Positions 6,977 to 53,750 of a stretch of DNA of 64,000 nt are shown one piece after another (position 1 is the stretch's first letter; every line of letters begins with the position of its first letter). The stretch is from Pholiota molesta (taxonomy: Eukaryota > Basidiomycota > Agaricomycetes > Agaricales > Strophariaceae): the NCBI GenBank assembly GCA_014925825.1, contig JACGCK010000133.1, positions 1-64,000 of the forward strand, given 5' to 3'. The position numbers and the translations under genes are program-made. The notes beneath the pieces are model-generated. The model saw only the letters and a program-made list of their open reading frames with translations. It did not search any database and was not told where the DNA came from.

Positions 6977-9898
6977 ATGACGACTCAGTACTTGTCGAAC
7001 GCGTCACACTTTAATATTGGCAACCTAACGATTTCGCATGTGCATGGAAACGCAGTGACCAATGGCCGCTCGGTAGAGTCCGAACGTCAGGGTGACAATC
7101 TTCACATCCAGTGAGACTCGTATATATCTAATCCGTGCAATCTTCCTAGTAAAAATCACAGAGCCTGGGGAGGTCCCTCGTAGAAATAATAGTACCGGCA
7201 GCTGGGAACGTCATGGTAATATTTAATTTTAATTTTTTTCGTGCGGCAAAGAACTTATATACATGTTCACAACCACACATTTAGGATTAACACGCTTGCT
7301 CGACAAGATTTCCGAAGGCGCTTTTCACGATGCCGCCGAGCGGGGCGATCCCCCGAGATGCCACCCCCATACTCGCGTCGCTATCCGAGCAGAAATCATG
7401 GACTGGGTCAATGCATCCGATGCCAGGCGCAAGTCCATCATGTGGATGTATGGCCCCGCAGGCTCTGGGAAGACGGCCATCGCACAAAGCATCGCTGAGG
7501 CATGCGAAAGGGCCGCATCCTTCTTCTTCTCTCGCACCGCCGCTGAGCGCAACGACACGAAACGTGTCATTGCGACCATCGCCTATCAGATCTCCCGCTT
7601 TCTCCCCCAATTCGAAGACGCCCTGCTCACCGCGATTGAATGGGATCCGACTATTTTCTCCCGCGCACTTGTCACGCAGATGCGGGTGCTCGTAGTAGAG
7701 CCTCTGAAAGCACTATCACCCTCGCCGCAGCCGATATTTGTGATCCTCGACGGATTGGATGAAGCCGGCCCCACACCCGAAGCCCAGGCGAATCTTCTGA
7801 ATGTTATAGGGAAAGCTACGGAGGAGCTGCGGCATATCCCCCTCATATTCCTCATCGCCAGTCGACCCGAATATGAAATCCGCGAAGCCTTCAATGGACA
7901 CCTCAGTCCGCTCATGAAATCACTGGTTCTGGATTATAACTACAAGCCAGATGACGATATCAGGCTGTATTTTTCTTCAACATTCGCAGAAATCCGTGAC
8001 AAACACATTCGATCGGGCACCCGGCTCCGACTTCCTTCCCCGTGGCCCTCTGAAAGGGAGGTTGATCGCCTCGTATCAAAGGCCTCCGGGCAGTTTATAT
8101 TCGCAGCTACGGTGTTGAAGTTTGTCGACTCTATTCGTCATCATCCAGCGGAACAACTTGATGTTATATTTAGCTTGTTGGCTGGAGGACATGCCAGTGA
8201 GACGCCATTTGCTTTACTTGATGTGCTCTATCACTACATCCTCTCCTCTGTGGCAGAACCTGCCAAAGTTCAACAGATATTGACAATGCTTGTGCTGAGC
8301 CTAAATCCAGACATCCCTTCCAATGTTGATCAAATCGAGGAATTTCTGGATTTTGACATCCGGAGAGTTCTAGTGGATATTCATGCTCTTGTTTATGTTC
8401 CACCAGCTGGCGAATTTGGATTGCTATGTTTTCATCATGCCTCTCTCTACGACTTCTTGATGGACCAATCACGATCTCATGACTTTTATATTGATGCTAG
8501 TCAGGGGCATATCAACTTGACTTGGCGTTGGTGGAAGGTCATTTCCAATAACCAATGTTCCAATCGACTTGATTTAAAGACTTGTTTACGCAATTTCCCA
8601 CATCATTTCTCAAAATCACCTGCTGGTATTGAATTACCGGACGATTTTGCCGGTTTCAATCTAAAGCAGCTTTTGGAGAAACAGTGTGGCATACAGTATC
8701 TATTTAGCTTACCTTGGGAAGCATTTTTTGAATGTGTGGAACAACAGGTTAGTCATTTACATTTCACTTATCAATGTATTACCTCTAACATCCACCCAAC
8801 GTAGGCTGGGGATAGACAAGACATTTCCCACAGAATGAAAGCTGAATTTGATGCGTTTTTCTTGGACTGCATTTCAAAGTATCCTCCCACTCTCCAGACT
8901 TACATTCCTACCGTTTTGGCCCTACAAGCCATGAATGGAGGATTAGGTGACATCATCCGCCTCTTACTTTGTGGATTCACTGAATCCATAATGGAGTGCA
9001 ACAATATTTTCAAACTCGACTCCACACTTTTGAATCTAGCCAGCAGAAATTTCATCATTGACACTGCTTTCTCCACTTTATTTCAGGATGAATGCCGTGC
9101 CAGAGAATACTATGTATGCGATAGAAGCTATTTGGCCCTGGCGAATCGGATCGTCGGAATTATTTTCCCCAAGTAAGTTCATTCAATATATCACACTGCA
9201 GTCACTCATCCCACTTAATAGGCCTGGAGAAGAAAAATGGCAAATCAAGTTCGAAGAGGCTTCTTTTGAACCTGATGAGCAGGTGCTTTACCTCGAAGAC
9301 GGTTCTTTATGTTTACGACTATATGGTCTATATGGTCTGGATTTCAATTGGTTCCTGGATATGCTCTGCAAAACACCTCAAGACTTGGATCTTGCAACAG
9401 TGCTGCGCGAATGCACACTCCAGTATGATGGACGCGATAAAAAGCTTAAGAAAGGATGGGAGAATATCGCTTACAGTAGCTTGGAATACATAAAGGTAAG
9501 CAAAATTAAAATGTACATATTCCACTGTTCATTAATTAGATTCGAACCGTTATCCCTGCCAGAGGTGTGGCATACCATATCTAAAGCACGTCCACCCTCC
9601 AGGCACCGACGAGTGCATGATTTGCGAAGAATGCGACGGCGCTTCTGTCGTCGTTGATTTGGACTGGCGGAATGACCCTCAGGCAGACGCCGCAGCATTT
9701 ATCCCGTCATCAGCACCGGAAGTTCCCTCGGGTGCCGGTGAAGTAGGCGACCATCCTAATGATTTGGACGAGGAGGATGTTATTGTTCCCATTGACCCAT
9801 ATACAGGACCAGGATTCGGCATTGGGTCGCCTCTTCGGATCTGTCGGGAATCCATCCTTGGCATTCTCTTTAAATTCGGAGGCATCATCAGTTGCTGA
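6977..9898 (+). CDS. NACHT-domain STAND NTPase (NLR-like), copy 1
   Basis: Predicted 851-aa NLR-type signalling NTPase. Exons 6977-7091, 7285-8747, 8805-9172, 9222-9495, 9563-9898; all junctions are GT-AG and in frame. Exon 1 is a 38-residue leader (SNASHFNIGNLTISH). Walker A GPAGSGKT is near residues 95-102, Walker B FVILDGLDE near 190-198, and a sensor-like LIASRPE near 229-235. A helical region follows, then a Cys/His cluster (CGIPYLKHVHPPG...CMICEEC). No WD40, ankyrin or TPR repeats are seen. Compared with copy 2, about 2 nt are missing near 9836-9845, so the protein ends early; the ancestral basic tail (QPKRKRG) persists in another frame up to 9992. Exon 1 and its promoter replace an older first exon whose remnants flank them. 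The NACHT call is firm; role in non-self recognition is inferred from the family. Confidence 0.9.
7175..7225 (+). pseudogene. Remnant of the ancestral NACHT copy 1 first exon (right part), now inside intron 1
   Basis: The stretch GCAGCTGGGAACGTCATGGT followed by AATATTT matches the end of exon 1 and the donor site of copy 2 (15749-15775). In copy 1 it lies in the intron after the new leader exon. With 6500-6728 it brackets about 450 bp of inserted DNA. Confidence 0.6.
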
Positions 9899-15658: not shown

Positions 15659-18585
15659 ATGTCCTCATCAAGGGAGATCAACTACTTCCCTAATGCTTCG
15701 AACGCGATTTTCAGTAACTTCACCATCACCCATGCCTCTGGAAATACTGGCAGCTCGGAACGTCATGGTAATATTTTTCTCATACAGTAATAATTTATAA
15801 ACTCAATTCTAGTTAACGACTACACTTAGGATTAACACGCCTGCTCGACAACATTTCCAAAGGTGCTTTTCACGATGCCGCCGAGCGGGGCGATCCGCCG
15901 AAATGCCACCCCCATACTCGCGTCGCTATCAGAACCGAAATCATGGAATGGATCAGTGCGCCCGATGCAAGGCGGAAGTTTATCATCTGGATGTATGGCC
16001 CCGCAGGTTCTGGGAAGACGGCGATCGGACAGAGCATTGCTGAGGAGTGCAAGAAAAAGGGTCTCCTCGCCGCGTCCTTCTTCTTTTCCGGCACCGCCGC
16101 CGGGCGCAACGACACGACACGAGTAGTTGCGACCATTGCATATCAGATCTCCCGCTATCTTCCCCAGGTCCAGGATGATCTCTTCACTGCGATCGAGCGG
16201 GATCCGACTATCTTTTCCCGCGCGCTTGCCACGCAGATACAGGTGCTCGTAGTGGAGCCTCTGAAAGCGCTACCGCCCTTGCCGCAGCCGATATTTGTGA
16301 TCCTCGATGGATTGGATGAAGTTGGCCCCAGCGCCCAAGACCAGGCGAACCTCCTGCACATTATAGGGACAGCTACGGAGGGGCTGCGGCATATCCCCCT
16401 CGTATTCCTCATCGCCAGTCGACCCGAATACGAAATCCGCGAAGCCTTCAATGGACATCTCAGTCCGCTCACGCAATCGCTGGTACTTGATGATGATTAC
16501 GAGCCAGATAACGATATCAGGCTGTATCTCACTGCCACATTCGACAAAATCCTCGACGAACACGTCCGATTGGGTACCCGGTCCCGACTTCCTTCCCCGT
16601 GGCCCTCTGAAAGCGACGTTGATTGTCTCGTATCAAAGGCCTCCGGGCAGTTTATCTTTGCCGCTACGGTGTTGAAGTTTGTCGACTCTATTCGACATCA
16701 TCCGGCAGAACGACTTGATGTTATATTTAGCTTGTTGGCTGGAGGACATTCCAGCGAGACACCATTTGCTTTACTTGACGCGCTCTATCACTACATTCTC
16801 TCCTCTGCGGCAGAACCTGCCAAAGTTCAAAAGATATTGACATTGCTTGTGCTGAGCAATCGAGACTTTATGTTCAATGTTGATCAAATTGAGGAAATTC
16901 TGGATCTTGATGTCCGGAGAGTCCTGGTCGATATTCATGCTCTTGTTTCTGTTCCGTCACCCAGTGATGAAGCCGACGATGACACTGAGCTACGATTTCA
17001 TCACGCCTCTCTCTACGACTTCTTAATGGACCGATCGCGATCTCATGACTTTTATATTGAAGCTAGTCAGGGACATATCGACTTGACTTGGCATTGGTGG
17101 AAGATCATTTTCAATAATCAATATTCCACTCAGCTTCGTTTGCTCACGTGTTTACGCCATTTCATACATCATTGCTCGAAATCACCTCCTAGCATTGAAC
17201 TCGCAGATGATTTCGCCTATTTCGATCTAAAGAAGCTTTTGGAGAAACATTGTGGCTCAGGGGATCTGCTTGCCCCACCTTGGAAAGCTTTTTTTAAATG
17301 TGTCAAACAACAGGTTAGTCATTTAGATTCCATTCAGTATGACACATTACTTACGAGCATATTATATTATTACCTCTAACATCCACCCAACTTAGACTGG
17401 GGATCGAGAAGACATTTCCCTCAAAATGAAAGCTGAATTTGATGCCTTTATCATGGACTGCATTTCGAAGTACCCTCCAGCTCTCCAGACTTACATCCCT
17501 ACCATTTTGGCCCTACAACCCTTCGACAGAGAATCGGGTGACATCATCCGCCTTTTACTTTGTGGATCCATTGAATCCGTAACGGAGTCCGACAATATTT
17601 GCAAACTCGACTCTACACTTTTGAATCTGACTGACGCCAATAATTTCATCATTGATGCTGCTTTCTCCACTTTATTTCAGGATGAATCCCGGGCTGGAGA
17701 ATACTACGTATGCGATAGAAGCTATTTGGCCTTGGCAAATCAAATAATTGGAATTATTTTCCCCAAGTAAGTTGATTTAATATATAATGCTGCAGACACC
17801 CACCCCGCTTAATAGGCCTGGGGAAGACAGTAGGCAAATCAAGTTCGAAAAAGCTTTTCTCATCCCTAATGAACAGGTGCTTTCCCTCGAAGACGGTTCT
17901 TTACATTTACTATACGATCTGGATTTCTATTGGTTTTCGGATATGCTGCGCAAAACACCGCAAGACTTGGATCTTGCAACATTGCTGCGCGAACACGCGC
18001 TCCAATATGATGGACATGCTACAGAGTTTAAGCATGGACGAGACCGTATCGCTCGCTGTAGCTTGGAATATATTCAGGTAAGCAATATCGAAATATACAT
18101 TTTCCACTGTTCATCAATCAAATTTGTACCGTGGTTCCTTCCAGGAGTGTGGCATACCGTATCTGAAGCACGTCCACCCCCCAGACACCAACGAGTGCAT
18201 TATTTGCAAAGAATGCAAAGGCGCTTCCGTCGTCGTCGACTTGGACTGGCAGAATGACCCTCAGGCAGATGCCGCAGCATTTCTCCTGTCATCAGCACTG
18301 GAAGTTTCGTCACACGCTGGTGAAGTAGGCAGCCATTCTAATTACCTGACCAAGGCTCTACCGCGTCTACCCATCGTTCCTGTTGGCCCATATACAACGC
18401 CAGGAGCTAGTATTTCGCCACCCCGGCAGGTCTACGGGAATCCATCCTCGGCACTCTCTTCGAATTCAGAGGCATTGCCAATCGCTCAACCTCCAACACA
18501 GCCGAAGCGGAAACGAGGACAACAAAGTCCGCCATCCGATCTTAGGAGGAGCACGCGTTTGAAGGTGAAGAAGGCAGCATCTTAA
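15659..18585 (+). CDS. NACHT-domain STAND NTPase (NLR-like), copy 2, intact tail
   Basis: Predicted 888-aa paralogue of the 7-10 kb gene and the best preserved copy. Exons 15659-15767, 15830-17313, 17396-17766, 17816-18077, 18145-18585, all in frame with the same intron phases as copy 1. The leader (PNASNAIFSNFTITHASGN) differs from copy 1. Walker A GPAGSGKTAIGQS, Walker B FVILDGLDEVG and LIASRPEYEI are intact. The C-terminus has the Cys/His cluster (ECGIPYLKHVHPP...ECIICKEC), then a low-complexity linker and a basic tail with PKRKRG and RRSTRLKVKK, which resembles a nuclear-localisation signal. The start is the first ATG after a CT-rich leader. Both flanks are repeated around copy 1, so a multi-kb cassette was duplicated. 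No C-terminal repeat domain is visible. Confidence 0.92.
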
Positions 18586-21250
18586 CGACTAGGTCGTTCC
18601 TTCAGCGGCGAGGAGAGTCATTGGTCAGATCGACACTCGGTGCGGACTCGAAACACAGGCGCTTGGCAGGCGCCGCGGGCGGGCAGGTGGTAACTGAGTA
18701 TTTCGCGAGATATGTACACTTTATAGCGGTCTTTATACAGACATTTCCATGCAGTAATATAGAACACGTTTTCCAGAACAACGGCATTGCATGCTCCAGA
18801 CTCTAGTTCTAACATCCCTCGTTAGACGAGCAGTGTGAAGACGATATATTGTAGAGGCTACAGCCCACAACAGCAGCACATTGGCAGACATATCAGGCGA
18901 ACGGCCATGCCTTCGACGTGACGCTTAGAGCCTGGGCCAGGAAGATAACGCCACAGGGAAGTCTGATGAGCCCGGCGGAGACGCTCGCATCTGTGAGGGT
19001 GTTGGGCATCGACTTTGTACGGACAATGGACGTATATACGTGAGGAACTATTCACCGTCATTATCCGAGTGTGCAATTGCGTCGAAGCAAGATTCAAGCG
19101 ATTTAGAGACAAGTGAGCGGTGTCGGGGATATTCTCGGAAAGGTTTGCAGGACTGTAATCAGCAAGGACAGCCCAGCAGGATAAACAAAGAAAACAAGCC
19201 GCGCTATAGATCTATGCAGAAAGCGGCAGGTATATTGGGAGAAAGTAGCCGAACTATTGCAAACGAAGACCCAACAGCACGTAAATTTAGCACATTGCTG
19301 CACGAGCGTAGACAGGCGGAACACACCAGTCGTGGTAATGTGCGTTCGCATCCGAGAGGTCAGCCTGCTTCAGGGTGCAGGACGTCTTTCCCTGCCGAGG
19401 CCGTAAGATCTGGGGAGGGGGATGAACATGTGAGCTGTGTTGGGTGGCATTTAATTCAGTCGACATGCACACCTTTGTCCATGAATTTCCCTCCCAGTGA
19501 ACTCTCTACCATCTCTGTGGTATGCTTATTCCTCCACCGTCTGCAAGTGCGACATGGTCTCTCACCTTCACCCGCGGTTTTGCTGCTGCGGCAGCATAGT
19601 TCAAGTTAAGCTTGTCCTCGCAGGAAGATACCCCCGTTACCAACCCTTTACCCAACCTTTACCATGTCGGCAAGTTGCGCGAGCATTGCTGAGGAACTTC
19701 GCGCACTGGTTAGGCGTCAAGTCTCTATTTGTCGACTTTCAACTGGCGATCCTTCCAAAATCCCCATGTGAATTTTGGTGGACGCACTGCGGTGTTCACT
19801 GTTCAGGTCAAGTTCGGGCAAATGTGAACAGAGGGTGATTACCATCTCGGCAAATTCCGATCTGGCTCGCTATCCCACGACGTGGAAAAGCCTGCTTGTC
19901 TGCTGCTTGTACTTAGCCATCATGTACAGCCTCTGCGATGTACTTATGCCCCAGGATTAGCGCGACGGTCCCCCATCCTATTTGACTGGGGACCTCTATC
20001 GTCCTCCTCGTGCCTTATTTCACCACGGTCATGGCGCTCCTGCGAAACGCCCCTGCTGTAGACCTCGAAGTGCTCGTTGTCGCCTTACTTGTGTCTTCTG
20101 CACTGTTCCCTCACTCGCAGCTCCCTGGCACACTTTGGAGATGCCGTTCGTACCGCGCGCACAATCTCGCTGCCGCCATATGGACCGTGCATCTACATAT
20201 CCCCCCCCGGAGCCGAGTTTGCGATGAAATTTTACTGCCTTTTCAGTGGCTGGACAGGCGCCCTGTTGAGCGGACAGTGGACTGGAAGCATCTGGTGCTC
20301 GATGTAAGCTGAAAACACGTCTTCATGAGCGTCACTTACCATTTCTATCAGGATGCACTGAATATACCACGAAGTTATTGCTGCCCTCGCGCATCGCGCA
20401 CCTGCGCATTCGGAACTCAATTACTTATATCTGCAACGCTGGTATGACCAAATCGTGCCCTGAAGAGATTGGTCTATAGATGTGAGGGAGGGCAACCGTT
20501 TACTGGTAAGTATGGTTCTCATTTCGAGATATGCCAACCTGATAGGTCAAACGAATATCAGAAGAAATCAGCGCGCTTCCTGTGCTGACTGCGTCAGGGA
20601 GCTCTGTTGTTGCCCTTGTAGATATCCCGCGGAGCTATATCAAACCAGAGCGGATATTAGAGACGACGATGTATACCGCAAGTTGAGAGTTATCGCGCTT
20701 GGTCTGGGAGAGGTGTACGCACGAAGTAACGGATGGCAAAGTTGTATTCCCGTTCATGCTTCTGGGGGCTGAACACAGTGCGTACATCCTCGAAATGTTC
20801 TCGTCCTCATTCGCGCTGTCATCATTCGTTTCTAATTTCCTCTTGTTTTGTTGGTCATCCTTAGATCTGGGCCCGACTTCTTCACCCCCGTCGACGTCCC
20901 GGGAACTACAGGATGTTCGTTATCTTCTTCGCTCTTTATCGTCGCCATTCACGCCCTGCTAGTTGTAGCACGCCCCACCCAGCCCGGCAAAGCCTCCCTC
21001 GACTCATCACTCCATGATCGCTCTACTACGATCATGAACTACTCTAACACCCTTCCGCGCCACTAGCACCATCGCGCTCCAACCGCCAACACCCCTATCG
21101 GGCATCGGGCACCCCCGTCCTCCGCTGCCCGCGATGGCCGCCTGGGCCGCTTCCATACCATACCGTCTGTGCGTGCCAAGAGCGCTGCGGATAACGTAGC
21201 GTCTGCGGCGCGGAGACGCTTTGGGTTGGAGGCGGGGTTTGGAAGTCAAG
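18050..21250 (+). repeat. Segmental duplication arm A (inverted partner at 61.25-64.0 kb)
   Basis: From the NACHT 3' exons through the 3' flank (GACTAGGTCGTTCC), a spacer (CTATGCAGAAAGCGGC), the block CGCACCTGCGCATTCGGAACTCAAT and the 21.2-kb signature, this arm is matched in the same order on the minus strand at 64000-61250. No intact gene other than the NACHT end is seen. One stretch (AGCTCTGTTGTTGCCCTTGT then an ERIL..TTMYTAS frame) looks like decayed coding sequence of unknown kind. Confidence 0.75.
21160..21242 (+). repeat. Cassette signature, copy 5 (end of the NACHT copy 2 cassette)
   Basis: Nearly identical to the inverted copy at 61.3 kb through GCGGCGCGGAGACGCTTTGG and the following GGAGGCGGGG. 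Best hairpin of the set. Confidence 0.65.
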
Positions 21251-21331
21251 TTCGTGTGGGTGAATGCCATTTGCCGTATGCTAATGATATTTATTTACTT
21301 ATCAATGTACATAATGATAATTCATGTGTAT

Positions 21332-22604
21332 CTATTTAGCCCCGAATATGTCGTCGGCATAAATTGAAAAGGGCTCTCCCTGCTCGGAGACTCAGAGTTA
21401 ATATTATGCTTAAAAGGGCAAGGAGAATGATCACTTCGTCAGGTTTGTCGGACGGTTTCACCCGTTTCCAAAGGCCCTTGAACCCATCATCGCATCCAGA
21501 ATCTGGGTCTGGATATCAGCCCCCATCTGACTCAATATGATGCATCAGGGAGAAAGAATGACTCACCATGATTACGACCGCTGGCATAGGCCGCCGCCGC
21601 CACGATCTCAAGTAAGCGCTCTTTTACAACTGGAGCCGTTTCTGAGGAACTCAGCAGGTCTTCTATGGTGTACAAAAATTTGTATGTGGTGCATTCCGAG
21701 ATAAATGTAGACGAGGAGTTCCGAAGCAAAATTGCCCATAGCTGGTTTATATTTTTCTTGAATGCAGGTCGTCAAAATCGCACGTGAGAAAACCACGTAC
21801 TCGGGCTGCACCTAACTGCACTGAGGGCTCGCCGTACCTATGAAAGGGTCAACGTCGAACCAAGTCTCAATTAGTAAGGCCAAACGGCGTACTTGAGATC
21901 GCGCCGCAGAGCCTGAACGGCCTCTCTTGCATTGTTTTCGCTCGCAGACGCACGCTCGCAGACTTCGAGAAGGAGAGCCCCGTCTTTCGAAGCTGTGGCG
22001 ATGAGGTAGCCTGGAGAAGTCAACTAGGATGAATGATTGAGAGTGATACAGAAATGGGGCACACCGATTATGCCCGAGAGTTCGGCAAAACCATCGTCCT
22101 CTCTGCGGGCCTCTCGCCCGCCGCGCTCCTGATCCCTGCTCAAAACCCCCTGATCATGTGTCTCCTTATCCAGCCTCTTTCGCTCCTTCTCCTTGTCGCG
22201 GTCATTATGGCGGCCACCCCAGAATAATCTGCGCTTCTTCGTCTTCTCGGTCTCGTCGCTCTCGCACGGTAGATAATCCAGGCTCTGTGGGCCGCTCTCA
22301 GTGGAGGTGGAGCGCTGCTCCGAATGGAACGCGGGCAGGATGCCTTCAGAAGCGCGGGGTGGATCACCCCGCGTGGTAAAATTGTGGAAAGCGCCTCTGG
22401 AAATGTTGTCGAGAAGCATTCTGAAGCCTATCCCCCAATTAGATATGTATGAGTCCGAGTCTCGCTGAATGTGAAGTCTTGAAGATCGTCACCTTGACGT
22501 TCTGACTCTACCAAGCGGCCAACGGGCACTGCGTTTCCATTAGCATGCGAGGTCGTTAGGTTGTTGATATTAACATGCGATGCGTTGGAAAAGTCCTGAG
22601 CCAT
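21332..22604 (-). CDS. Chimeric protein: NACHT-type leader fused to a VHS-domain (LSB5-like) protein
   Basis: Seven-exon minus-strand gene, 308 aa: 22604-22493, 22427-22065, 22010-21893, 21837-21801, 21741-21567, 21508-21435, 21379-21332. Exon phases all close and it ends at TAG. Residues 1-60 match the NACHT leader: SNASHVNINNLTTSHANGN, then LLDNISRGAFHNFTTRGDPP. The sequence then switches to a charged linker (KERKRLDKETHDQ) and a helical domain of about 120 residues with VHS/ENTH features: ALLLEVCERAS, AREAVQALRRDLKYG, LWAILLRNSSSTF, VVKERLLEIV. After it come GFKGLWKRVKPSDKPDE and an acidic end. No P-loop is present. VHS proteins of the LSB5/GGA type act in endocytosis and ubiquitin-dependent sorting. 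I recognise the VHS part by motif only; the exon joins are strong because all seven exons fit. Confidence 0.78.
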
Positions 22605-22880
22605 TTGAGTCTGAGGTGGTGGAATGGGGGTGAAAAATGAGAGGAAGAACCGAGGGTTGAAATTTGGAAGGTAGAGCCCTGTTACTTAAATTAAACCACG
22701 TTGAGGTTGTAATCGTTGTGGGCGCACTGCGCGGCGTCTTGTGCTGTGCATATTTGGGACCCACTCATTACATTCCCATGCAGCGTTATGATAGAGATGA
22801 ATGATTACAACTGTACTCAGCGGTGCCGATATGTGCTGTGTTCCGTTCGACATGTCATTTTGCGCACCACTCTGACTTCT
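22605..22880 (-). promoter_or_regulatory. Promoter/5' UTR of the VHS chimera, homologous to the NACHT copy 1 promoter
   Basis: Read on the minus strand, this segment matches 6730-6976 almost throughout. Shared blocks include GGACACAGCACGTATCGGCA-type sequence, TCTCTATCATAA, CCAAATATGCACAGCAC, and a CT-rich stretch (CTTCCTCTCATTTTT) ending in CCACCTCAGA just before the ATG. It has no similarity of this length to the copy 2 promoter, so promoter and leader exon travel together. Confidence 0.65.
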
Positions 22881-23756
22881 TCATCCCACGATTTTAACAG
22901 TGTTCGTCGAGATTAAAGACCTGCGTGAGAGGATGTTGAGGGATGTGCATGCTCGCTCGCTCAGGGATTTACACCGCAATCAGCATCGCCACACCCACAC
23001 CCACAACACCCACAAGCCCGTTTTGGACACATCGTCTGTAAGCGAGATCAGTCTCAACCTCAACACAACCATGGTCCATCATCCTAATACAACCATTCTA
23101 TATGCTATCTCCATATCCACCGAAAATGGCTCAGTCCAAAACATGACATCGGATGCAAATGCACCAAAACTGCACCGTCGTGTCCCATCTCGTTGTTGCG
23201 TCGCGTCCTTGCTTTCACATCTTGTTCACGTCTCACGAGAAGTGGCATCTCCGTTCAAAAATTGTCAAAAGCTTTAAGTAGTGGCGAGGGCGAGTCATCG
23301 TGAGGCGGAGGCAGCCTCATAAGCGCAAGAAGTTGAAGAAGGAATATAAAGTTGTTATTGAGTTGTTAATAGCCATTTCGGCAAGTTCCGAGCATTACTC
23401 GTGCCAGCGACGAGTCGACAACGACTGCTCGCCTTCTACACTCATGTACAGTCACCTCGCCTTCATATACGGGCTCTACGATGCATACCCCAGCTCAAGC
23501 TCCTGGTACGCTTGTTTCACCATAGCCATACCGTTCATTGTACATAATCATTCGCACTCGCACTCAGGATAGATACGCCCTTCCCAGTGCAGGGAAAGCC
23601 AACGAAGCCGACGATTGCCCGTCTCCTGTAGACCTCCACGAATCCAACACCCCACATGGCGCAGCTGTCACTGCCGCTGACACCAACATCACTTCCTAGC
23701 GTTGCGCATCCACTACGCCCGCCGATGCAGTGGTCGCATGAGCTCACGCCGCGCTA
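22881..23756. other. Degenerate intergenic DNA
   Basis: CACACCCACACCCACAACAC near 22990 is simple-sequence. From about 23330 on, the DNA resembles the decayed cassette upstream repeat leading to signature copy 6. No intact gene. Confidence 0.4.
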
Positions 23757-23835
23757 TACCCTCTGCGCGTTCAAAGAACGCTGAAACAATGCAGCTTCTG
23801 CGGTGCGGAGATGCTTTGGCTACAGGCGAGGCTCG
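23757..23835 (+). repeat. Cassette signature, copy 6
   Basis: CTCTGCGCGTTCAAAGAACG, then a shortened spacer and GCGGTGCGGAGATGCTTTGG. It is preceded by the degenerate GCAGTGGTCGCATG block seen before other copies. Confidence 0.55.
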
Positions 23836-23915
23836 GATTGAGACGCCATGGTGTAATCAGGGGCGGTGGAATAACGAGGGTTCACAGAAGTGAGTCGTTT
23901 TGCGATTGATTTACA

Positions 23916-24472
23916 GTTGAGCTCTAGCGTCTGCACAGGCAGGAAGATCTGTCCTGATATCTGCTGGTCGTCGGTGCGCACGTTAGGGTTTTCAGGTTTT
24001 AAATCGGAATCCGCAATCCAATGAGGATCCATCCTACATTGGCGTCTGGATGACTAGTGAAATTGATGGATCATGGAACTCAGAGTATCGCATCAAGCGC
24101 CCGCCTGCGACTGGGAGCGCGGAAACGGAGAGAACGAGCAGTGAAAATATGCGACGCTCCTCCATCGCGCAACCCAAACTCGGGCCTTTATTCACGACGG
24201 CGTGCGCAGCGCAGTCGAAGTACTGGTACGCCTTGTCCCTTTTCTTCTGTGAGCACTGAGTTCGCTTCAGCAGCAGCAGCATCTTTTTACTTGCCTCGCC
24301 CAACTTGCGGCTGCAACTCGTATAGTCTTATTCTGTCAGGCGATGCTCAAGGGGTGAATTTTTATAGTTGAGCTCTAGCGTCTGCGCAGGCAGGAAGGTC
24401 TGTCCTGATATCTGCTGGTCGTCGGTGCGCACATTAAGGTTTTTCATGTTCTAAATCGAAATCCGCAATACT
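23916..24472 (+). repeat. Pair of 105-bp direct repeats around ~340 bp
   Basis: AGTTGAGCTCTAGCGTCTGC starts near-identical copies at 23917 and 24365, which run to the end of TCGGTGCGCAC and AATCGGAATCCGCAAT. The intervening DNA has no recognisable gene. The repeat ends lack the TG...CA of LTRs. Confidence 0.65.
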
Positions 24473-24771
24473 ATTGATACTTGTGGGTCGCGAACATCAC
24501 TTCGCAGGTGTGCAGCCTCATTCGTTTGACCCTACCTGCTCGTTAATGGCTTGTCGGCAGCTACATTCCCGACAAAAAAGCGTCTAGACTCTATCGATCT
24601 GTCATGATTAGGTTGGCTGATTCATTTATAATTAGCCCTCAGTACGTACCGCCCAGCGCTCAGCACTTACGAACATGCCGGAGGGCAGGCATATTTGAAC
24701 TCATCGCCCTGACACGTATTGATGTTGGCCCTTCGATCCTCTACTCTAGCATCTGAGACTTGAGTCTAGCA

Positions 24772-25685
24772 ATGGAGTCTTCGCCTTTACTTAATGTAAG
24801 AGCATAGAGACCTATCTATCTCGTGTTGGTGGTCTATATATTCACGATGTGTACTCTCTACAGAAGGGCAACCAGGCGCGTGTTCGTTCGTTCCAGGATT
24901 CGGACACTGCAAGGATTCACGAAATATACTTGCAAGCTATGGTCTACGGTCGTGAGTTTCTATGTCCTACTTTTTGTTCTCGTCATAAACGCCCTGTTAT
25001 GTACGCATCTAGTGAACTCCCCAGCGCACGTTGCCCTGAACAGCCAGCTCCGCAAACCTCTCGCCATCGCCTTGTACGTCATGTTCGCCGCCGGTCTCGT
25101 GCTCCTACCATATCCTCCGCCGGCGCGGATCGCGGGCGCCGTCCTCTCCATTACAACATTGGCGATGTTCATTGCGTGGAGACAGATCATCTGGTCAAAG
25201 TTCAAGACTTTCTGTCAGGAAGCCGTGAGGACAGACCTGGCGGATATCAAGAAACACTATGGAACGTCGCCGAGCGGATTCTGGGTCGCGGAAATTGCGG
25301 AGGGGAGTCTAGCGGGGACGATCATCGGGTGTGTTGGCCTAGGTGCGTGTTTGAAATTTCTGTGATGGTACACAGGTAGAACTGACAGACGCGTGCAGAT
25401 TCGACTGCGAATGAAGACCCCAGTACAGCCGAGCTACAACGTATGGTCGTAGACCCAATGTACCAGAATCACGGAGTGGGCAGGCTCTTGATGACAACTC
25501 TGGTCGAGCACGCGAAAGCCAGCGGTTTGTCGACGATATCGCTGTCTACGAGCATGTACCAACCTGGGGCAATGTGTATGTATGAGCGCTTTGGCTTTAT
25601 CAAGGGCAAACGGGTGTGGGTGACTGTCAAGTTCATATTCACTATAGACAAAGCGTATTTGCAGTTCTTCACTCTCAATCTATAA
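24772..25685 (+). CDS. Membrane-anchored GNAT N-acetyltransferase, camello/NAT8-like, tandem copy 1
   Basis: Predicted 242-aa acyl-CoA-dependent N-acetyltransferase. Exons 24772-24795, 24864-24951, 25013-25342, 25399-25685. A short N-terminus leads into VRSFQDSDTARIHEIY, the usual GNAT first strand/helix. A hydrophobic hairpin (IALYVMFAAGLVLL and AGAVLSITTLAMFIAW) gives two membrane segments, and the acetyl-CoA-binding motif A is RMVVDPMYQNHGVGRLLM, followed by MYERFGF. This order (GNAT start, TM hairpin, GNAT core) is that of the NAT8/camello group, usually in endomembranes. The 24-nt first exon is supported by the same structure in the neighbour at 26.0 kb. The substrate is unknown. Confidence 0.85.
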
Positions 25686-26042
25686 AGCGACTTCGAGACT
25701 CGAGAGGCCGGATGTTTGTAAAGAACATATATATTATCGATATTAACACTAAGCGTGTATTTTCCCTACAGCAATCAACCAATCGAACAAGCAATATTCA
25801 ATAATGGTTGAAGCCTGATGTTCTGAATGTTCCGCACCAGCGATCAGCGGGGTGTATTCTGGTGTATTTCCCAAGTATTTCCAACTGATTTCCAACGTGG
25901 AGAACACGCGTACAGCCGACCGCAGTCTTATAAGCGCTGTCAGCATTTGCGGCCCCGGGATTGCCGGAGATCGTTACCGCCAGTACTTAAAAACCCTTCG
26001 CCTTGACATAATCTTGCAAAAATTCCCCTTTTCCCATCAACA
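25686..26042 (+). promoter_or_regulatory. Intergenic promoter region between the two GNAT genes
   Basis: No frame. Contains GTGTATTTCCCAAGTATTTCC direct words and TACTTAAAAACCC, a possible TATA-like element about 55 bp before the copy 2 ATG. Confidence 0.3.
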
Positions 26043-26972
26043 ATGGGCTCTGTACCTTTACTTGATGTGAGAACGCCTGGTGACCATAAGCCTACTGCCG
26101 TTTTATACATTCACAACAACCGTTTTACTTTCAGAAGCGTGCTCAGGTCCACGTCCGTTTGTTTCAGGAATCCGACACGGGAAGAATTCATGAATTGTAT
26201 ATGCAATCTATGGTCTATGGCCGTGCGTATTTTCATGTTCTGCTTGCATCATGATTGACAGAGCATATACATCCAGCGAACTCACCCCCGAATATCGCAC
26301 TGAAGCAGCAGCCCCGCAACCCTTTCACAGTGAATCTATACTGCGCGTTCGGGCTGGGGCTTGCCCTCCTTTCGTATATGCCGTCGAATCGCATCCCGGG
26401 CGCGCTCCTCTTAATCATGGCCCTTGCTGTATTCTTCTCGACGAGGCTGATGATCTGGCGCGATTTCAAGCTGTTCAGCGAGGATAACGTGAGCACAGAC
26501 CTATCCGACATCAAGAATCATTACGGAACGAAACCGAGTGCGTTTTGGGTCGCCGAGATCACGGACGGGAGTATGGCAGGAAAGGGAACGGTCGTGGGGT
26601 GCGTTGGCTTAGGTGCGTGTCTGAAATCTCCATGGTCCCAGCGACATCAACTGAGATCGCGTACCGAGCTCAGAAGCCGCATTGGATGATGGTACCGCCA
26701 ATCTCAAACGAATGGCTGTCGACCCCGCGTACCAGAAACACGGAGTCGGCAGGGCCTTGATGACGACCCTGCTGGACCACGCCAAAGCAAGTGACATATC
26801 GACCATCTCGCTGTCGACGACCGTGTGCCATGTGGCCGCGATGAAGATGTACGAGCGCGTCGGCTTTACCAAGGGCGAATGGTTCTGGCACAACATAGGG
26901 TTCCCGTTCACCGTGCTGAAATTGCACGTCCAGAACTATCATTTGGATTTACGCAGCATGAACAAGGACTAG
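26043..26972 (+). CDS. Membrane-anchored GNAT N-acetyltransferase, camello/NAT8-like, tandem copy 2
   Basis: Predicted 248-aa tandem paralogue of the 24.8-kb gene, same strand, about 360 bp downstream. Exons 26043-26066, 26135-26222, 26277-26612, 26674-26972. The third exon could instead begin at 26262, also in frame, adding five residues. It has VRLFQESDTGRIHELY, a TM hairpin (YCAFGLGLALLSYM and GALLLIMALAVFF), motif A KRMAVDPAYQKHGVGRALM and MYERVGF. The first exon MGSVPLLD parallels MESSPLLN in copy 1. Protein motifs are better conserved than the introns, which suggests an older duplication with both copies still coding. Confidence 0.85.
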
Positions 26973-51114: not shown

Positions 51115-53750
51115 TTAGGTCTTCTTCTTGAGACGTAAGCCAGGAGGAATTCCAGACGGAGCGACATTTCTGTCGGCTTCTGCCTTTGCCTCGCACCATA
51201 TACAAAGGTCGTAATCACGTCTGTGAATATGCTCTCCATGCGGGATATCATGTTTCTGGAGACGTATTGGAAAGAGACATTAGCACGAATGTATAGATTG
51301 AGAATTGAATGTTATGGCTGGACGAACCTTCATAAAATCTAAGCACTTGACCGCAAGCTTCGTTAATCTAGACTTCCATTGACCACGTCTTGACCCGGTC
51401 ATTACAAACCGATCGTTACGACTGAACTGGAGGGATGCTAACAATCCTCTCAGCGCCTGTTCGAGAACATCGACTCTTGCTGCCTTTGGGAGCACGCAGG
51501 AAAGTGTATCGAGGGCAGCGTCGCAGGATAGTGACCATTCACCATTCCGGCTATATGCGTAACATCAGCGAACGTCTTCGGTACTAGGGTTAAGTATTCT
51601 TACTCACTTTTTTACAAGGAAGTTGGCAAGCGTGCTCGCGAATTTTCCATACGTCATTTCGTTCACCAGATAGACGCCCGCGTGTTCAGGCTCAGTTGCA
51701 AAGCGACTCATTAGGATGTTCATATATGAATCTGACGACATCCAAAATATTAATCGGTCGCGAGAAAATGGCACATGTACTCCATGAACGTCCTCGATGA
51801 TGTCCAACATTCGTACCTCTCGATAGGTAGCCAAGGTTGCGAACATGGCACACAAGTCCTCCTGAATGACAGAGGCTGAACGTATTATAATCCCTACGAG
51901 GCAAGAGAAGAAAGTTCCCGCATGATAGCGGAGGAGCACCTGGAAGGGATCGTTGTCATGCTGAAACGGAATATGGAATGAGAATAATTAAATTTAAGAT
52001 GTTCACGTGGTTTCGTACCTCGTTATCGAGCCAGCGCATAAAATGATCCAACTCCTGCGCTAGTTCAGAGTATATTCGTGGAGCCACGGAGTCTTTTTGG
52101 CCGTCGATGTTACACACTGTGGACGTGAGATCAAGACCATACAGCGCATCCATAAGCTCTTCGGATAACTCGGAGCATCTTGAATGGTACAGCACTGAAT
52201 AAACTCGGTGAGCGGGAGCCAGCCTATTGTCTATCAACGAAACGCTCGTCAATTTTTTATACGTCGAGATATCTTTCGGACTCACTGGGTTCCTTGCTTA
52301 GGTTTCGGCTGATACATGTTGCAATTCTCGCGTGTGCCTTCTTATAGTCGATAAAGAACTTGCCAGAACGAGACTGATCGAATAGGTAGTCGGATAATGA
52401 GGCATGATGAAGGCGAAGCAAGCCCTCGGATTCGGGGACAAAAACAAGCGCATGAAGGTCGCCGAGAATGATAGAGATATCTCCTGGTCGATGTCCGAAG
52501 ATCGCCTCTACGGCCTGCAGTGAGAGATCAGAGATTTCCGGGAGGAGGTCAAGGGTGGAGTGTAGAATGACATAAGCAATGATTTCCAGCGCATTTGCGA
52601 TAAGATCATCGTCAATGGACTCGAGGATACCGCCGTATAGGGCATCTAACTCGGCAAATGGCGTGTTGTTTCCCGCTGGCGACAGTCCGATAATTATATC
52701 CAGCCGATCTAGAGGTCGATGGCGGGTCGAGTCGACAAATTTGATTACGGTCGACGCGTAAATAAACTGTCCCGAAGCTTTCTGTACAAGCAGTGTTAGA
52801 TGCGTCGTACTTGGCCACTGAGCCGGTATAAACCTCTTCGATGGGTGTTTGTATTTAATTTCGTCGAATTTATCGCGTAAAAATACTTTTATGTCTGCAT
52901 CTGGCTGATAGGACGCATCCAGCGCCAACCCTGATACCCGAAGCATATTGTTTCCAGTATGAAAAGAGTCACGAATGTCTTGTTCGGGGCGACTGGCGAT
53001 CAAAACGTAGACTGGAAGGTTGAATCGTTGGATAGAGTGTAGAAGCGCGTCAAGGATCGCCGAACGAGCATTTAGCCCCCCGCATTCATCCATTCCATCG
53101 ATGAGCATCAGCATAGGTACCCGTGTTCCTTTGATAGCCAACGAAGCGGCTTTGAGCGGTCGAACAATCAAGTATTCGACTTGTGTGGCAAGTGACAGGG
53201 AAAAGATAGTCGCATCGGAATTGATGGTGTTAAAGATATATTCGGCAGTCTCAGGGATAGAGAATATAAGCTGGTAGATGAGGGTTGGAATAAGATATGT
53301 CTTCTCGTTGCGCATGGGCACGGTGCGCGAAAAGAAAAAGCTAGCTGCTAAAATCCCGGCTGCCTGACATAGCTCTGCAATCGTTTGCGCAATCGCAGAT
53401 TTCCCTGATCCAGCAGGTCCATAGAGCCAAAGAAACAGCCTCTCGGTATTCGGATCCTTGATCCACTCCATAATCTCCTTCAGTATAGATTCGCGGGTCC
53501 TTGGATGGCATTTCGGGGCATCGTAGCGTTCCTCGGAATTGTGGAATGCACCAGGCGCAATATATCTGACGAGTTTGTCTAAGGCTATTACAAGGATCTT
53601 TAGGGCGAATTTTTGAAAGAAAGAGGGCCACATACCGAGCTGGCGTTGGTCCGCACCATTGATATGCGAATGGTAATGATCGTGATGATCGTGATGAACA
53701 GCAGTGAAAGTGCCCCCTTCGATGGTGATATCGTGAGCGTTGCTAAACAT
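51115..53750 (-). CDS. NACHT-domain STAND NTPase, divergent paralogue with His-rich leader
   Basis: Predicted 780-aa protein. Exons (minus) 53750-53636, 53584-52286, 52230-52019, 51960-51608, 51550-51328, 51255-51115; every junction closes in frame. The leader is MFSNAHDITIEGGTFTAV followed by a run rich in His and Asp (HHDHHDHYHSH). Walker A GPAGSGKSAIAQT lies near 94-106 and Walker B LMLIDGMDE about 100 residues later, then VLIASRPEQDI. The C-terminus carries a Cys/His module (HDIPHGEHIH...CIWCEAK) and a lysine-rich end (RLKKKT), the same plan as the other copies despite strong divergence. The first intron, 51 nt, is inferred from the phase-1 junction shared with copies 1 and 2; reading through it is also open. 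No WD40 or ankyrin repeats. Confidence 0.88.

Follow-up and report, generated by a model that had tools for sequence, protein, structure and literature searches.

In the mushroom Pholiota molesta, the 5′ end of a leader-NACHT receptor gene is joined in frame, at the DNA level, to a gene for an LSB5/TOM1-like VHS-GAT adaptor, and that this fusion is real is practically beyond doubt. The fusion gene lies at positions 22604–21332 of the minus strand of contig JACGCK010000133.1 (hereafter C39), whose first 64,000 nucleotides form the window that was analysed. We describe below the structure of the gene, the origin of its two halves and of the junction, its second copy and other carriers, and the signs of selection on it, and then compare the functions that its product might have.

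Gene structure and gene models

The preliminary description of this DNA, made from the letters alone, had proposed seven exons closing in frame over 927 nt. The rebuilt coordinates agree: the open reading frame consists of 308 codons plus a stop, distributed over seven exons, and all six introns have GT...AG ends. The features of the gene and of its surroundings are the following.

6980–8759, plus strand: neighbouring leader-NACHT gene, leader at 6986; Pfam NACHT/NPHP3_N
15682–17379, plus strand: neighbouring leader-NACHT gene, weaker leader match at 15686; Pfam NACHT/NPHP3_N
22605–22841, minus strand: sequence ahead of the gene, presumably promoter and 5′ UTR, with homologues in front of leader-NACHT genes
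22493–22604, minus strand: exon 1, NACHT-type leader MAQDFSNASHVNINNLTTSHANGNAVPVGRLVESERQ; its homologues precede NACHT frames
22428–22492, minus strand: intron 1, NACHT-type; 65 nt in C39, 57 nt in the copy on contig C90
22427–22065, minus strand: exon 2 as a whole, from the rebuilt exon model
22366–22427, minus strand: 5′ part of exon 2, NACHT linker GFRMLLDNISRGAFHNFTTRG, about 21 codons, matching receptor linkers
22357–22365, minus strand: fusion point GATCCACCC (Asp-Pro-Pro); in the alignments parental homology begins at 22365
22065–22356, minus strand: 3′ part of exon 2, charged linker from the parental VHS-GAT gene, by homology to contig C7
21567–22010, minus strand: VHS domain, exons 3–5 (22010–21893, 21837–21801, 21741–21567) with introns 3 and 4
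21435–21508, minus strand: exon 6, DPDSGCDDGFKGLWKRVKPSDKPDE, post-VHS parental tail; 65 of 74 bases identical to C7
21380–21434, minus strand: intron 6, splice sites present (coding in the NCBI model, where it gives the hydrophobic VIILLALLSIILTL)
21332–21379, minus strand: exon 7 (uncertain), reading GEPFSIYADDIFGAK up to the stop codon; homology to the parent fading, 25 of 45 bases
20300–21257, minus strand: 3′ flank, repeated module of non-parental origin, matching mostly the cluster contigs C90, C39 and C100

The NCBI model of the gene (BJ912DRAFT_1047229, a hypothetical protein of 325 aa, called P0001 here) is identical to the rebuilt one through exon 6; it then reads through intron 6 and ends in a different C-terminus. 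Exon 7 is uncertain for this reason. Since intron 6 has splice sites and a matching intron in the parental gene, while the NCBI model reads through it, both C-termini (308 and 325 aa) are possible. Within P0001, intron 6 (21434–21380, minus strand) is open and contains a stretch whose best 19-residue hydropathy is 2.38, starting from residue 294, so that its retention would give a protein end resembling a tail anchor.

At the 3′ end, the homology to the parent fades in exon 7 and the repeated cluster module begins at 21257. This module of about 1 kb is found in both orientations at C90:197 kb, C90:122 kb, C39:61–62 kb and other sites, with 65–90% identity over varying lengths; the 95-aa frame in it matches nothing in Pfam. 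An Rfam scan of positions 20000–24500 gave zero matches.

The receptor-type 5′ half

The segment 22841–22438, which runs from the upstream region through exon 1 into intron 1 and includes most of the latter, matches sites on C90, C39 and C100, mostly at 70–75% identity. When the upstream region is compared on its own with those of 11 paralogues, eight align at 69–74% over 230–252 nt, two more share 175 and 50 nt, and the one on contig C593 shares nothing; the upstream region that the fusion has in common with leader-NACHT genes amounts to approximately 235 bp. By tblastn, 11 genes have the leader in front of a NACHT frame, one of them at position 6986 of the window, and a weaker leader is present at 15686. 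The preliminary description had recognized a NACHT-type leader, linker and promoter in this gene; these matches to the window genes and to the paralogue upstream regions support the leader, the linker and an upstream region that is presumed to be the promoter.

Probing the whole genome with the leader yields 18 matches (E ≤ 0.1), two of which are the fusion and its C90 copy. All 16 others have a match to the linker probe on the same strand, at most 200 bases downstream, and the 11 of these 16 loci that were examined all read as NACHT genes. The linker probe alone has at least 150 matches in the genome (150 of 172 candidates were scored), which suggests, at the level of sequence, that the family of P. 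molesta NACHT genes carrying the receptor linker is very large. Among the receptor genes compared, those at C90:112 kb and C90:284 kb are closest to the fusion in intron 1 and linker. The former has just 50 bases of upstream region in common with the fusion, so that both are candidate donors at most.

The fusion thus contains the leader and linker of the local receptor family, and shares with the leader-NACHT (NPHP3_N) receptors of the cluster everything from the upstream region through the leader exon and intron 1 to the Asp-Pro-Pro of the linker, but it has neither the P-loop NTPase nor the receptor body. A Pfam search of P0001 with E values up to 1 returned VHS alone and no NACHT or NB-ARC NTPase; likewise, a tblastn search with a NACHT query matched only the linker of the fusion (22416–22318) and no NTPase.

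The leader itself has diverged from those of the receptors, which typically read F-S-N-A-S-x-F-x-I-x-N-L-T-I-S-H-V-x-G-N. Position 18 is Ile in all 12 receptor leaders compared (a set that includes near-identical pairs from different contigs) and Thr in both alleles of the fusion; position 21 is Val or Ile in 11 of the 12 (Ala in the 15.7-kb gene) and Ala in both alleles. Five hydrophobic residues are left in the fusion leader, versus 6–9 in the receptor leaders, so the hydrophobic positions of the local leaders have not been kept.

Several other loci deserve mention. In the leader-NACHT gene at C90:284 kb (L047), the frame breaks at the Asp-Pro-Pro codons, the very place where the fusion was joined, and in the one at C90:209 kb (L042) the tblastn NACHT match is split over two frames, so that it is probably a broken copy. 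Two very similar leader-NACHT genes, at C39:66 kb (L045) and C90:117 kb (L046), are on opposite strands while the fusion region is collinear, and it may be that the receptor cluster is rearranged between haplotypes. In the window, 52332–53576 (minus strand) is a NACHT gene of another subfamily, approximately 43% identical to the 15.8-kb NACHT, and 24808–26969 (plus strand) contains two adjacent GNAT acetyltransferase matches (25386–25682 and 26655–26969), with an open frame that contains hydrophobic stretches ahead of each (24808–25362 and 26255–26686).

The VHS half and its parental gene

The VHS domain proposed in the preliminary description is recognized by Pfam (PF00790) with 42.9–45.2 bits, depending on the piece given, the cut-off being 29.8 bits, and the predicted structure of the fusion has a confident VHS fold. 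From 22365 to 21394, the DNA of the fusion is 81% identical to C7:78330–79291 and C95:50627–51590, which establishes that an LSB5-like parental gene is present elsewhere in the genome; in exon 2 past the junction, 243 of 299 bases are identical to C7. The parental protein (C7) starts with MKLFARKK, so the receptor-type leader is not native to the ordinary LSB5-like gene, and a spliced stretch of it scores 53.3 bits for VHS and 39.4 bits for GAT. No GAT domain was found by Pfam either in the protein encoded by exons 2 to 7 or in P0001.

The fusion and the VHS-GAT adaptor thus have in common the VHS domain, the charged linker that precedes it, the GFKGLWKRVKP tail and the intron positions. The fusion differs from its parent in that it lacks the first 164 residues and the GAT domain, has a leader and upstream sequence of the receptor type, and changes far more quickly.

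A search of the genome with the Pfam VHS profile gave nine exon-sized matches on six contigs, which include neither the fusion nor the C7/C95 parent. The short exons were probably lost in this first look; a protein query did find both.

In STAM1, W26 is a main ubiquitin contact according to PMC6659632. The residue aligned with W26 is Gly in the C39 allele and Trp in the C90 allele; the ubiquitin-contact Leu of helix 2 is present in both. That C39 no longer has the Trp may reflect decay. The structure alignment (A1) comprised 12 of the 14 proteins retained in the first protein search described below, P0002 and P0012 being excluded.

The junction

The receptor linkers mostly read GATCC or GACCC, followed by C or T and CC. 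At the junction, the parent on C7 has CTCGATCCACCCCGC and the fusion GGTGATCCACCCCGC, and the nine bases GATCCACCC are the same in both. In the C7 parent, 164 residues precede the Asp-Pro-Pro encoded there. The crossover thus lies in this short stretch, which receptor linker and parent share from a GATCC block at 22365 on and which both read, in one and the same frame, as Asp-Pro-Pro. Since the parental introns 2–6 are retained, the copy was made from DNA and not from mRNA.

The second haplotype and other carriers

The fusion is present on a second contig. Positions 19945–27326 of C39 are collinear with 126667–133570 of C90 over approximately 7 kb; the alignment falls into two blocks, one 92% and the other 94% identical. 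The C90 copy has the same seven exon lengths and the same GT/AG ends.

A first protein search, with 14 proteins retained from 3,535 candidates, revealed by eye receptor-type sequence in P0001 and in the metagenomic protein P0002. With P0002 as the query, a second search retained five of 206 candidate proteins: P0002, P0001, P0015, P0016 and P0017. In P0002 and P0015, both from metagenomes, the NACHT linker meets the parental linker at the same junction; both are seen as protein sequence around the junction and in a small part of the VHS domain. Upstream, P0016 and P0017 continue as the unfused parent type. The identity of P0015 to the two alleles (0.88 and 0.91) compares with 0.90 from allele to allele, and it may come from another strain, as far as such identities indicate; P0002 is more distant (0.82 and 0.85). 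The open frames of P0002 and P0015 are weak support for a maintained frame, because a protein database contains open frames only. A search with the leader alone gave four candidates, of which only P0001 itself passed, and is therefore uninformative about other species.

The occurrence of the junction on both haplotype contigs and in two metagenomic proteins refutes an artefact of assembly or gene modelling as far as the junction is concerned, and such an artefact, for which speaks nothing more than the difference between gene models in exon 7 and the C-terminus, is extremely improbable.

Age, frame and selection

The synonymous divergence between fusion and parent (dS 0.41–0.45) far exceeds that between alleles (0.037 for the fusion, 0.076 for the parent); judged by these values, the fusion is old, not young. 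Its frame has nevertheless been kept. All four exonic indels relative to C7 are multiples of three, against none of the seven intronic ones (Fisher p = 0.003), and there is no stop in 233 gap-free aligned codons at approximately 19% divergence from the parent. If substitutions were randomly placed, the probability of finding no stop would be 0.013, 0.032 or 0.095, depending on whether 100, 75 or 50% of the 133 substitutions occurred on the fusion branch. The indel pattern and the absence of stops over such a long time argue against the idea that the gene is a drifting by-product, that is, an old duplication-fusion that has remained open by chance, is perhaps transcribed via its inherited upstream region, and has no selected function.

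Several other observations are consistent with precisely that idea. The dN/dS between fusion and parent is 0.35–0.41, and the estimate for the fusion branch, assuming an even split of dS and a value of 0.02–0.1 on the parent branch, is 0.59–0.80. The exons are no better conserved than the introns (577 of 697 bases identical to the parent, versus 222 of 265). In the VHS domain and tail, 29 positions differ between C90 and the parent; by comparison with six outgroup proteins, 14 of these changes are clearly on the side of the fusion, one is on the side of the parent and 14 are ambiguous. One allele has lost the conserved Trp, and the leader has lost hydrophobic residues.

Past the junction, the ratio of nonsynonymous to synonymous differences between alleles is 13:6 in the fusion and 1:12 in the parent (p = 0.0009). 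Codons 62–90 hold ten of the nonsynonymous and four of the synonymous changes; the remainder is 3:2 (p = 0.04). This cluster suggested gene conversion from the parent into the C90 allele, which we rejected: at codons 71, 75, 77, 79 and 80, C90 is identical to P0002, P0015 and the parent, so that C39 is the changed copy there, the other codons of the cluster being mixed.

In terms of what can be read from the alignments, the frame has been kept, and the constraint on the protein is weak at most and may be absent. We lean slightly towards the view that the fusion makes a selected protein.

Possible functions of the fusion product

The tentative reading that we put forward is that the product acts as a decoy or competitor of the parental VHS-GAT adaptor; we give the by-product the same, equally tentative, standing, and it explains the weak constraint equally well. 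The receptor-type upstream region would drive the transcription of a VHS-only protein, which, without GAT, could not perform the full job of the adaptor. This protein might soak up a partner or ubiquitinated cargo of the parental adaptor, or it might present an expendable VHS surface to some factor by which the adaptor is attacked or exploited; its activity would be in step with the expression of the NLR cluster. The missing GAT domain, the receptor-type upstream region and the retained fold are best accommodated by a decoy or competitor, and a VHS fold that is kept while a ubiquitin-contact residue is lost (in C39) suits a decoy.

In plant NLRs, integrated decoys consist of a host domain joined to receptor-derived sequence. 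The fusion has no receptor body and would be at most a detached decoy.

Another parallel comes from the NRC networks of plants, where a VHS-GAT protein is tied to NLR output. PMC8412950 reports that NbTOL9a, an ENTH/VHS-GAT protein, negatively modulates the cell death mediated by NRC2 and NRC3, seemingly without direct contact between TOL9a and the NRCs, and PMC13240173 describes a Phytophthora effector that binds the ENTH domain of NbTOL9a. The domain fold is the same as that of the VHS domain of the fusion, but NbTOL9a is a full-length host protein from another kingdom, with no receptor leader. The parallel is a cross-kingdom analogy, and the decoyed factor in P. molesta is hypothetical. We consider it improbable, though worth stating, that the gene is a detached immune decoy of mushrooms: a receptor promoter and leader placed on the VHS domain of an ESCRT-type adaptor, kept and fast-evolving, losing ubiquitin binding and intercepting factors that attack or exploit the adaptor, as an independent parallel to the TOL9a-NRC link of plants.

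The leader might also couple the VHS protein to the receptors. If it were an amyloid-like NLR motif, it could allow the protein to co-assemble with the cluster's receptors, in the way that effectors of fungal NLR-amyloid systems do. PMC9815663, in its account of these motifs, describes an Agaricomycete N-terminal group, usually at the very terminus, with three hydrophobic residues and a final G[DN]. Judged from that wording and not from a profile, the leaders of the local receptors suggest a resemblance to this group (NLR05/08/22/29/44), and the fusion lies in the same cluster with a related upstream region. Against this, positions 18 (Thr) and 21 (Ala) of the fusion leader are changed and its hydrophobics reduced, and the same account places the effector-side motifs C-terminally, in HeLo, MLKL-like or PNP_UDP proteins. 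We regard this coupling as unlikely. The preliminary description had proposed that, if the gene is expressed, the signalling or targeting segment of a receptor now sits on an endocytic or ubiquitin-sorting protein, which stands in part: the leader and the VHS domain are there. With GAT absent, however, "endocytic protein" overstates what remains, and with the leader hydrophobics altered and selection weak, the leader is at most a putative signalling segment.

Slightly more doubtful still is that the product is a dominant-negative regulator, whose VHS part would disturb an endosomal route holding receptor-driven cell death in check, the gene then being a feedback element and not a decoy for an attacker. 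The effects of silencing and overexpression of NbTOL9a, as given in PMC8412950, agree with its acting negatively on NRC2/NRC3 cell death, and the C90 allele has the Trp. Against this, the C39 allele lacks it, and the literature cited here shows no such route in fungi.

Relation to known systems and significance

A search of the open-access literature by title or start of abstract found no publication that describes a leader-VHS fusion. In Fibularhizoctonia, according to a single sentence of PMC9815663, there are NACHT proteins that also have a VHS annotation; compared by this description, they combine an N-terminal amyloid-like motif with a VHS annotation, but they have kept the NACHT domain, unlike the fusion. 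Gene fusions and truncated receptors are already known as kinds, and it is the combination of leader and VHS that would be new.

For this fusion one can point to a receptor-type source, a parental gene, the place of joining and two alleles, so that its history is readable. The interest of the gene comes chiefly from plants, in which NLR immunity is modulated by the VHS-GAT protein TOL9a. An active product would link a VHS-GAT trafficking adaptor to the biology of fungal NLRs, a connection that the literature cited demonstrates for plants alone. With an inactive product, the gene would be a clean example of how long the frame of a fusion survives where constraint is weak and the receptor cluster around it changes fast.
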